A DNA stretch of 64,000 nucleotides, from the NCBI GenBank assembly GCA_025963775.1, contig JAOQAD010000023.1, positions 1-64,000 on the forward strand, read 5' to 3'. Shown piece after piece: positions 21,463 to 32,588 of this stretch. Under the pieces are notes generated by a model, which was not told where the DNA came from, made no database searches, and worked only from the letters and a program-made list of their open reading frames with translations. Position 1 is the stretch's first letter. Every line of letters starts with the position of its first letter. The stretch is from Bacteroidota bacterium. Its GTDB lineage: Bacteria; Bacteroidota; Bacteroidia; 2-12-FULL-35-15. The translations under genes were made by a program, and so were the position numbers.

Positions 21463-21653
21463 GCTCCTCCGGAGCTCTTGTTTCATCGCGTTAATAATCT
21501 TGTCTATTAATAATATGCTCCTCCGGAGCATTATTTTTTGGTTGGAACAGGCCGCTCTTATGTGTTTAGCATTTCATCATTTTTTGCTAATACTCCGGAG
21601 GAGTATATTATTAATAACACTTCCGCACCCACATTTCAGCGCTCCGGAGGAGC
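21463..21653. repeat. nested inverted CTCCGGAG palindromes
   Basis: Four 13-base elements: GCTCCTCCGGAGC at 21463-21475 and 21517-21529, then inverted copies ACTCCGGAGGAGT at 21592-21604 and GCTCCGGAGGAGC at 21641-21653. Flanks are shared in a nested way: copies 1 and 4 both have TAATAATTC, copies 2 and 3 both have TTAATAATAT, so the block is a large imperfect inverted repeat. This accounts for most of the 339-base gap 21414-21752; no gene is seen. Confidence 0.75.
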
Positions 21654-29778: not shown

Positions 29779-31728
29779 TTATTTCGAGATCACTTTAAAT
29801 TCCGTGCGCCTGTTCATAGCACGGTTTTCATCCGAATCATTTTTCACCTTTGGCCTGGTGTCTCCGTAGCCTTTGTAGCTAAGGCGTTTCGGATCGATGC
29901 CATGGGCAACCAGGTAATCATAAACAGTTTTTGCACGGTTCTGTGAAAGTGTCATGTTCGATTTTTTATCGCCTACATTATCCGTATGCCCGCTTAATTC
30001 ACCACGGATGGCCTTGTTCACATTCAGGAACTTCACAAGAATGTCGAGCTCTGCATTTGATTCAGGCTTAAGATTGAATTTTGCCGTTTCAAAGAATACA
30101 TTCTTCAGTTCAATGATGCCTGTATCGATGGGCTGCATCGGTACATCCATGATGAATGGCTTCGTTTTATCTGCCAGCTCCTTCAATGCAAAATTTTCCG
30201 AATAAAATAAATAGCCCGGCTGGGAAACATTCAATAAATAATCTTTATCCACCGGTAACGTCACGAGGAACTCACCATTCCCGCTGTTTGCATCCGATTC
30301 GATCACAGGCTTACCTGTCGCGAGGTCGATCAGCACAAAGTGAGCGCCGAGCGGTGCACGCGATTTTACATCGTACACCTTTCCTTTTACATAGGTCACG
30401 AGATCAGGACGCGCTTCCTTGTACAGCTCAAATTTATACATGTCCAGCCCGCCCAGTCCGCCATCGCGGTTCGACGCGAAATAGGCGATCTCACCGGAAG
30501 CGCCCACCAGTAAGCTGTTCTCATCACCATAGGTATTGATCGGGTAACCGAGATTAACAGGCTCTCCCCAAACACCTTTATCATCTTTACGCACTACATA
30601 AATATCAAAGCCACCCATCCCGATCCTTCCGTTGGAGCTGAAATACAAAGTGCGCCCGTCAGGATGTATGAACACCGATTGCTCATCGCCTTTTGAATTC
30701 ACCTTCTTTCCGAGATTTACCGGGTGTTTCCAGCTTCCATCCGCATCCAGCTCCGATACATAAATATCGTGCTCACCCATTCCGCCGGGACGGTTGCTCA
30801 CAAAGTAGAGGCTCTTTCCATCTGCAGAGAAGGAAGGCTGTGTTTCGCGGTATTGTGTGTTTACAGAGTTACCAAGGTTATACGGCTTCGACCAGGCATC
30901 CCCTACTTTCTCCGCATAAAAAATATCACATCCACCCAGGCCTTTTCTTCCCGGGCCAAAGCTCCCGGTCTGGTCCTGGCAAACGGTGAAGAACAACACC
31001 TGTCCGTCAACCGACAAACTTGGCGCGCCTTCATTTCCCTGTGTGTTGATCCCTGTTCCCGGGATCAGCATTGCTTTCTGCCACACGCCGGCAACCTTTT
31101 TGCTGACCATGAAATCTTCCTGCGTAGGAGCACGCTCTGTCCTGTTGTTGCGCGTGAACAGGAAGGTCTGGTCATCGGCTGTGATCGCCGGGAAATACTC
31201 ATCAAGGTTGGAATTGATGCCTTCACCGAGATTGACCGGTTTGAAGGGCTTCGGATTTTTTGTGGCATCGATCGCAAAATCGCAATTCTCTAAATTGCGT
31301 TCTGCACTTTCTTTTGAATCGGGATTGATGTGGGGATTTTTCAGGAAGCGCTCAAAATCGCTTTTCGCATTTTTATAATCACCCACTTTCATTTCCAGGC
31401 AGGCAATGTTGTAAAAATTACTGCTGCTGAATCCGGGACTGATGGTGATCGCCTTTTCATATTCTTTGATCGCTGCATTGTTATTTCCTTTGACCTGGTA
31501 CAGCTCAGCCATCAGCAAATGCGGTTCGATGAAATTGCTGTCTTTTTCAATCGCTTTAGTAAGCGTTGCCATGCATTCATCATCCTTCTGCTGGTTGTAC
31601 AGCTTCATGGCCTGCTCAAAAAGGGCAACAGCTTTTTTATTTTTGGAAGTGTATTCGCCGGGAGGCAATTGTGCTTTGCAGGAAAACAAAGCGAATACCA
31701 GGATGATAAAAGTTAATGTGTTTTTCAT
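29779..31728 (-). CDS. PorE-like lipoprotein: TPR, PD40 propeller, CRD, OmpA
   Basis: A 649-residue lipoprotein (lipobox ALFSC, Cys17). Order: TPR repeats (about residues 30-150; ALFEQAMKLYNQQKDDECM, AAIKEYEKAITISPG), a PD40/WD40-like propeller (FPAITADDQTFLFTR, QPSFSADGKSLYFVSNRPG, DGRTLYFSSNG, EIAYFASNRDGGLGGLDMY), a carboxypeptidase-regulatory-like domain (YVKGKVYDVKSRAPLGAH), and an OmpA domain that binds peptidoglycan (LSGHTDNVGD, NRAMNRRTEF). This is the layout of PorE, a T9SS component. Bacteroidota have several such paralogs, so the exact identity is open. Its start overlaps the stop of the upstream transposase gene by 4 bases. Confidence 0.9.
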   Translation of the reverse strand: MKNTLTFIILVFALFSCKAQLPPGEYTSKNKKAVALFEQAMKLYNQQKDDECMATLTKAIEKDSNFIEPHLLMAELYQVKGNNNAAIKEYEKAITISPGFSSSNFYNIACLEMKVGDYKNAKSDFERFLKNPHINPDSKESAERNLENCDFAIDATKNPKPFKPVNLGEGINSNLDEYFPAITADDQTFLFTRNNRTERAPTQEDFMVSKKVAGVWQKAMLIPGTGINTQGNEGAPSLSVDGQVLFFTVCQDQTGSFGPGRKGLGGCDIFYAEKVGDAWSKPYNLGNSVNTQYRETQPSFSADGKSLYFVSNRPGGMGEHDIYVSELDADGSWKHPVNLGKKVNSKGDEQSVFIHPDGRTLYFSSNGRIGMGGFDIYVVRKDDKGVWGEPVNLGYPINTYGDENSLLVGASGEIAYFASNRDGGLGGLDMYKFELYKEARPDLVTYVKGKVYDVKSRAPLGAHFVLIDLATGKPVIESDANSGNGEFLVTLPVDKDYLLNVSQPGYLFYSENFALKELADKTKPFIMDVPMQPIDTGIIELKNVFFETAKFNLKPESNAELDILVKFLNVNKAIRGELSGHTDNVGDKKSNMTLSQNRAKTVYDYLVAHGIDPKRLSYKGYGDTRPKVKNDSDENRAMNRRTEFKVISK

Positions 31729-32162
31729 TGTTGTAGTGTGTTTTCAAATTTAAGGGTTTTCATCAGATCACCGTACTCTTCCTTAAATGTTTTCTTTTTA
31801 TGATGTTCTTCCTGGTTAGCGATGTAATTTCTGACCTTTTCAACAAGTGATTCACTCACCGATAAAGCGATATATTCTTCCTGCCATTCAAATTTAAATG
31901 GAACAAGCTTTTGTTTATTCACCCAAAATGACGACTCTCCTTTTAACAGCATAATAATTTTTGCAGCTGACTGATCCACTCCTAAGGAAATCAATAAGTG
32001 TATGTGATCTTCCACACAGTTCATACAATCAATATAAATTCCTTTTGCAAGGCTGTTTTCTTTGATGTGATTCAGTAAAATTGGCTTTAGATCCTTTGTA
32101 ATGATCCGATTCCTGTTTTTAGTGGACCAGATCACATGTAACATGATTCTTGCGTAAGGCAT
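31725..32162 (-). CDS. IS200-like / REP-associated tyrosine transposase (RAYT)
   Basis: A 145-residue HUH endonuclease of the Y1 transposase family. The metal motif is EDHIHLL (His53, His55) and the likely nucleophile is Tyr113 (RNYIANQEEHH). The gene is full length and intact. No TnpB partner or left and right IS ends are evident; instead an ordered array of palindromes starts 10 bases upstream of the ATG (32172-32570), the setting of RAYT genes and their REP elements. The stop overlaps the PorE-like ATG by 4 bases, an odd link between a mobile-element gene and an envelope gene. Confidence 0.9.
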   Translation of the reverse strand: MPYARIMLHVIWSTKNRNRIITKDLKPILLNHIKENSLAKGIYIDCMNCVEDHIHLLISLGVDQSAAKIIMLLKGESSFWVNKQKLVPFKFEWQEEYIALSVSESLVEKVRNYIANQEEHHKKKTFKEEYGDLMKTLKFENTLQQ

Positions 32163-32171
32163 AGTGGTTTT

Positions 32172-32570
32172 TAGGCTAAAGCCTATTTCAAATTTTGTTT
32201 ATTAATTGATTAACTCCTTTGACTGATATTCAATTATTAATTTTGGGGTTGGGCTAAAGCCCAGTTGGCCTGGGTTTCCTTATCCACGACCTGAAGATCG
32301 TGGCAACTAATATAAATAGTTAAAACTTATTCTGTTGGGAAAGCCCAATTTGAGTTTGATTCTCTTTATCCATGACCTGAAGGTTGTGGCAATTAATATA
32401 TAGTTAAAATTATAATGTTGGGCTAAAGCCCAATTGGGTTTGATTCTCTTTATCCACGACCTGAAGGTCGTGGCAACTAACAGCGGCTTATAGTTTTTTT
32501 CAGGTTATTGCAATAGCCACGGGCTTCAGCCCGTGGATCCCGAGTGCAGCCACTCATGGGCTTTAGCCCA
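32172..32570. repeat. ordered palindrome (REP/BIME-like) array
   Basis: Two hairpin types alternate. Type A is TTGGGCTAAAGCCCAA; type B is CCACGACCTGAAGGTCGTGG. A copies: 32172-32185 (degenerate), 32249-32263, 32335-32348 (CTA lost), 32418-32433 and inverted 32557-32570. B copies: 32284-32303, 32370-32389, 32454-32473 and inverted variant 32517-32536 (CCACGGGCTTCAGCCCGTGG). Three A-B units repeat with a period of 83-86 bases and are closed by an inverted B-A unit. It fills the 426-base gap between the transposase and queE; no gene is seen in it. Confidence 0.9.
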
Positions 32571-32588
32571 ATACCACAAATCATTCCA

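Follow-up and report, generated by a model that had tools for sequence, protein, structure and literature searches.

The locus described here raised the question of whether the gene for a single-strand transposase in a Bacteroidota bacterium is functionally tied to the hairpins that crowd its upstream side and, if so, to which known system the pair belongs. The gene was found in a window of 64,000 nucleotides (the whole stretch of DNA that was analysed), where the open reading frame at 31725–32162 on the reverse strand encodes a Y1/HUH single-strand transposase-like protein of 145 aa, recognised by its motifs, Pfam, NCBIfam and an AlphaFold model. The Y1_Tnp domain (Pfam PF01797) was detected with an E value of 2.3e-24. 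The preliminary description of this DNA had claimed an intact HUH/Y1 protein with His53, His55 and Tyr113, and these three residues were indeed invariant in an alignment of 23 proteins. The AlphaFold model (pLDDT 87.8) found its best PDB matches in the TnpA proteins of ISDra2 and IS608, and the REP-bound RAYT structure 4er8 was a poorer match (E 2.6e-5). The protein scored 60.3 bits with the NCBIfam IS200/IS605 model, above the cut-off of 55, and 24 bits with the RAYT model, far below the cut-off of 80. The label of RAYT given to it earlier had to be abandoned, because its tyrosine motif reads YIANQEEHH where RAYTs (TnpA-REP class 2) have Y---NP, and because the foot of the associated hairpins is RTTG or ATAG rather than GT[AG]G. 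The motifs DHIH (in EDHIH), WQ (in FEWQ) and YIANQEEHH make up the complete set of TnpA-Y1 subclass 1.2, namely DH[IV]H, WQ and Y---Q--HH (Quentin et al. 2018, PMC6006769), and the tyrosine motif was present in a close form in 97 of 100 homologues sampled from the best-matching loci. Judged by these motifs, the protein is a TnpA-Y1 of subclass 1.2 and no RAYT in the strict sense. Subclass 1.2 is characterised in that paper by a median length of 148 aa, occurrence in Bacteroidetes and Cyanobacteria and a low copy number; its table enters "no" for REPs, which is a published observation and not a definition, and its automatic REP search required GTAG or GTGG.

In the window, the transposase gene stands between queE and an ompA-like gene, the latter matched in 33 of 36 genomes of the genus. 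Twenty loci were fetched for comparison, one of which was the window itself; another (L302) was uninformative since queE lay outside its fetched stretch. In all 18 informative relatives queE stood just upstream of the ompA-like gene, with neither a transposase gene nor an A-B hairpin array between them. The gene together with its array was thus delimited as an insertion at 31728–32572 by comparison with related genomes that do not have it, the edge on the ompA side being approximate. On the other side, the window and the nearest relative (G028) part at ∼32572/32573, beside the outermost hairpin A. The stop codon of the transposase and the start codon of the downstream OmpA-like gene overlap in ATGA (31725–31728, reverse strand), as seen from the sequence and the loci of relatives.

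Upstream of the gene, the array was found to consist of a single hairpin A0, three A-B units in the same orientation and one inverted unit. The preliminary description had let the array begin at the hairpin nearest to the start codon; this hairpin was present (32172–32185; sequence, repeats and folding), but it is a fifth A, which adjoins the start codon and has no B partner. The three direct units and the inverted closing unit were all there as previously described. On the forward strand, unit 1 comprises hairpin A at 32249–32263 and hairpin B, with one mismatch, at 32284–32303, and unit 3 comprises hairpin A at 32418–32432 and an intact hairpin B at 32454–32473, all four supported by repeats, the unit pattern and folding. 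Between them lies unit 2, with a hairpin A lacking CTA at 32335–32348 (sequence and folding) and a hairpin B with two mismatched pairs at 32370–32389 (sequence, repeats and folding). The closing unit is on the reverse strand, its foot ATAG and hairpin B at 32513–32536 (sequence, Rfam and folding) and its hairpin A at 32557–32571 (inverted repeat, empty-site comparison and folding). Tandem Repeats Finder reported 2.7 copies of period 84 with 82% matches at 32248–32480, the spacing of the direct repeats being 86 and 84, and a strict unit pattern had two matches in the window and none in each of 100 shuffles. The three direct units may be tandem copies of one unit that arose beside the gene.

When folded as single-stranded DNA, the intact B hairpins reached −8.7 and −10.1 kcal/mol (z of about −5); for the A hairpins that are intact within units, the values were −4.4 to −5.4 kcal/mol (z of about −2 to −2.7). 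The loss of CTA from the middle A had been noted correctly, but this copy still folds (−4.0 kcal/mol, with a stem of 5 bp). Of the two hairpins of this unit, B with its two mismatched pairs is the more damaged (−2.9 kcal/mol, z −0.9). Both hairpins are intact only in unit 3 and in the inverted unit. Furthermore, the A'-B' unit that many relatives carry 3' of the gene is missing on the OmpA-like side in the window. Because this unit is missing and two of the four B hairpins are damaged, the copy in the window may be dying. An Rfam search of the array gave no family above threshold; the Acido-Lenti-1 family (RF01687) matched below threshold at 32507–32536, on the reverse complement of the inverted B.

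To see the array in the context of its family, loci of homologous genes were collected, 30 being the best of one search and 80 the best of 542 confirmed stretches; after removal of 6 identical proteins and 4 proteins shorter than 120 aa, 100 of the 110 loci were kept. Within 160 bp of the gene, hairpin A (GGCTNNAGCC) was found upstream in 75 of these 100 sampled best loci and downstream in 66 of 98; it was present on at least one side in 94, on both sides in 47 and on neither in 6. As a control, random windows of 160 bp were drawn from these loci, and 26 of 2000 (1.3%) contained it. The figure of 94 of 100 sampled best loci contrasts with the table entry of no REP for subclass 1.2 (PMC6006769), and no description of REPs for this subclass was found in the openly licensed PMC literature.

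Complete units were parsed in 81 of the 100 sampled best loci, giving 110 after one of 111 (upstream at L112) had been removed as a parser error. Each is laid out as a foot (RTTG or ATAG), stem-loop B, ∼22 nt and stem-loop A (GGCTTTAGCC), so that the ordered combination of A and B pointed out in the window proved to be kept in fixed order across this transposase family. The sequence of A was GGCTTTAGCC in 106 of the 111 units as first parsed, and the gap between B and A was 18–28 nt in 107 of 110. The foot was ATTG in 51 units, GTTG in 17 and ATAG in 12 (together 80 of 110), and the GT[AG]G foot of class 2 REPs was not the foot of these units. The B stem is 8 bp long and occurred in 51 different versions, with pairs changed on both sides in a compensated manner; its loop is usually CTTTAG or CTTCAG, and the TTYA form stood in one polarity in 106 of 110 units. 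The units flank the gene in inverted orientation and point inward from both sides, as B-A-gene-A'-B'. In 37 of 57 upstream units, 9–22 nt separated the end of A from the start codon, and the stop codon lay inside A' (GGC TAA AGCC) in 23 of 53 downstream units.

The variable B stems were found to follow the gene beside them. At 29 loci, B and B' of the same locus agreed in 6.90 of 8 stem positions, compared with 5.22 between loci, and a permutation test of the agreement within loci gave 0 of 20,000. The same held away from the gene. In five genomes, for which the fetched places were compared, the dispersed units were in every case closer to the B of the resident gene than to the B of other genomes: 7.00 versus 5.54 of 8 positions in the genome of the window itself (G000), 6.10 versus 4.62 in G005, 7.77 versus 5.43 in G015, 6.65 versus 4.82 in G022 and 7.08 versus 2.75 in G046. 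The class 2 trait of hairpins that are dispersed and cognate to a gene was thus found in the A-B units as well.

The preliminary description had proposed counting the units across the genome and comparing strains with and without the transposase. In the genome of the window (a bin of 3.33 Mb in 44 contigs, 65% complete), six more A-B units were found at five other places. The strict pattern matched in 39 of 148 relatives. Where a close homologue was present (E ≤1e-30, a threshold picked after it had been seen which loci carry hairpin A), 25 of 33 genomes had at least one unit and 21 at least two, with 199 units in total. Genomes with only more distant Y1 genes had at least one unit in 11 of 56 cases and at least two in 5 (39 units), and those without a match at 1e-10 had at least one in 3 of 59 and at least two in none (3 units). 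Genomes with at least two units were therefore much commoner among relatives with a close homologue (21 of 33) than among the others (5 of 115; Fisher p 9e-13). The hairpins are accordingly neither confined to this locus nor as frequent in relatives without the gene, since the units recur in the genome and are commoner with a close homologue. The counts made with the strict pattern are lower bounds, because it demands a CAA end and misses families with a TAA foot; G002 gave no strict match although its own gene locus has units. Some single matches lie in coding sequence and look like chance. Units without a close homologue were found in G133 (19), G026 (5), G021 (4), G120 (3) and G010 (2), so in these five genomes either the gene has been lost or something else moves the units. 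In G133 the 19 units have no obvious resident enzyme, since the two homologous genes fetched have other hairpins alongside. Counting the bare 10-mer GGCTTTAGCC in place of units was tried and rejected: G147, which has no homologue at 1e-10, contained 61 copies (control, 3), partly inside a different repeat (L227–L233), and at the seven places read no B was found beside it; in G013, four of ten places read were chance matches without B.

These results support the REP/RAYT-like association of gene and hairpins that had been proposed, and we consider it likely that the locus represents an HUH/Y1 single-strand transposase of subclass 1.2 and the composite, REP-like two-hairpin units that belong to it. 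The A-B system seems to be a so far overlooked branch of a familiar type of selfish DNA. With the class 2 systems of E. coli, Pseudomonas and Stenotrophomonas it shares a Y1 gene in low copy number and, on its flanks, hairpins that carry a tetranucleotide foot on the 5' side, and with their REPs, BIMEs and REPINs the dispersal of hairpins, often as inverted pairs, and a hairpin family of its own for each gene. It differs from them in the tyrosine motif (Y---Q instead of Y---NP), in the foot (RTTG/ATAG instead of GT[AG]G) and in that the unit joins two unlike hairpins in fixed order. Two palindromes in one array do have a precedent, since BIMEs of E. coli combine y REPs with those of type z1 or z2, as stated in PMC8266576. 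Many candidate palindromes have been listed in Flavobacterium genomes by RepRanger (PMC12306157), whose relevant passages give no tie to a transposase (further literature: PMC8049555, PMC2817692 and PMC2864571). By this reading, the transposase would be the one enzyme for both A and B, would bind them on single-stranded DNA, would cleave near the outer ends of the units and would have spread them; the foot could serve as a guide, by analogy with IS608 and REPs, for which (for REPs partly) such a role is described in PMC8266576. A bolder version, which we regard as possible yet doubtful, is that subclass 1.2 is a second, independent REP-making line. Its natural substrate would be two different hairpins in a set order, each serving one subunit of the TnpA dimer, and its miniature elements would go into the loops of other palindromic elements and so build nested palindromes. 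The likely reading places in a functional context a subclass of HUH proteins that had been listed without REPs, and carries REP-like biology into Bacteroidota and Ignavibacteria, where the foot differs and the unit is composite; the compensated B stems with their own proteins form a natural series for mapping hairpin recognition. If the pair were one substrate, it would show a way in which two different ligands can be supplied to one Y1 dimer.

The alternative that survives best, although we hold it to be unlikely, is that the locus is an ordinary IS200/IS605 insertion sequence in decay, with local duplication of the hairpins at its ends. The NCBIfam assignment, the nearest solved structures (ISDra2 and IS608 TnpA) and the insertion of the gene at a site empty in relatives all agree with it. 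Subterminal hairpins and the single-strand Y1 chemistry to be expected are features shared with these elements. However, IS200/IS605 elements have one hairpin per end, whereas two kinds of hairpin in inverted pairs stand on both sides of homologous genes; what is dispersed and amplified is the hairpin units, not the gene; and in the window the gene has queE and the ompA-like gene beside it, not tnpB. Nor is the gene multicopy here, because the other two of the three Y1 genes found in this 65% complete genome are divergent, being only 35% and 32% identical to it.

In the preferred reading of a transposase with its own units, some of the units have most likely spread as miniature elements. Most copies read in G015, G046 and G133 had the form B-A-(∼10–20 nt)-A'-B', and the form A'-B'...B-A was observed in G021, G022 and at one place of the window's own genome. 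At G016:C4, B-A is followed by a fusion of transposase residues 1–25 with the C-terminal end and then by A'-B'; the N-terminal part was matched by tblastn with E 4e-12 and the C-terminal part weakly, with E 0.1. As far as can be read from its sequence, this copy is an internal deletion product with the units as ends, and since its B-A and A'-B' enclose the two ends of the gene, the flanking units appear to behave as element ends. Many copies occupy the middle of unrelated inverted-repeat elements (L194–L213 in G015, L234–L246 in G046 and L252 in G133), and one of those in G015 (L213) looks nested twice. In G046 the outer repeat was found in several states, enclosing the core, a solo B or other centres, or nearly empty. 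These states suggest that insertion took place in the middle of a palindrome; the core looks the newcomer, because the outer repeat also occurs without it and with a solo B. In G005 (L134–L148) and G013 (L164–L173), A'-B-A hairpins were observed inside short terminal inverted repeats, with apparent target duplications, judged by eye only, of 7–9 bp and 5 bp, respectively. Several of the G005 copies lie at contig ends, which suggests recent multiplication there.

Y1 enzymes are not expected to make target duplications. One could suppose that DDE-type miniature elements carry the hairpins as cargo, the transposase being a mere neighbour or another passenger, and cores inside various terminal inverted repeats (in G005, G013, G015, G021, G022, G046 and one copy of G133), some with apparent duplications of 5–9 bp by eye, point in that direction. 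We think this improbable, as the gene itself has hairpin A beside it in 94 of the 100 sampled best loci, inspection of the 87 gene loci with 300 bp on each side revealed no conspicuous terminal inverted repeats outside A and B, and the outer repeat of G046 exists without the core and with a solo B. Least probable is that the hairpins act as RNA, whether to terminate transcription, to stabilise mRNA or to switch translation of the transposase, which would suit the placement of A before the start codon and over the stop codon and the hairpin control of IS200 transposase expression mentioned in PMC3733652, but leaves unexplained the dispersal at unrelated sites, the match of B to the resident gene and the conserved foot. 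Alongside the preferred role as transposase substrates, an RNA role may be an additional effect, in that the A close to the start codon may dampen the translation of the transposase mRNA as well.

The other two Y1 genes of the genome carry the Y---Q--HH motif (read from DNA), scored above the NCBIfam IS200/IS605 cut-off and below that for RAYT, and sit among hairpins of their own, GCCCCTCCGGGGC with GGCCTCTCTGAGGCC in one case and GCTCCGGAGGAGC in the other. A pattern covering GCCCCTCCGGGGC and GCTCCGGAGGAGC matched at 51 places in the genome, and the reversed control at none. More than one hairpin type per gene was again found at L001 and in G013 (L174). Since the other two Y1 genes have their own hairpins, REP-like hairpins may be general in subclass 1.2. 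The window itself contains, at 21463–21653, an array of GCTCCTCCGGAGC and GCTCCGGAGGAGC hairpins, the family that flanks the Y1 gene at G000:C36. At L174 (G013:C124), a subclass 1.2-like gene adjoins a long array alternating three hairpin types.

Acido-Lenti-1 resembles the inverted B in its 8-bp stem, 4-nt loop and 3' CUA, but it is described as a candidate RNA. It was matched above threshold once each in G146 and G048, and the matches read were other hairpin families and not A-B units. The match in G146 (L304, at G146:C74) lies in an alternating array of two hairpins and adjoins what by eye reads as the start of another Y1 gene; because of this setting, the Acido-Lenti-1 "RNA" may be a transposase-associated DNA hairpin.
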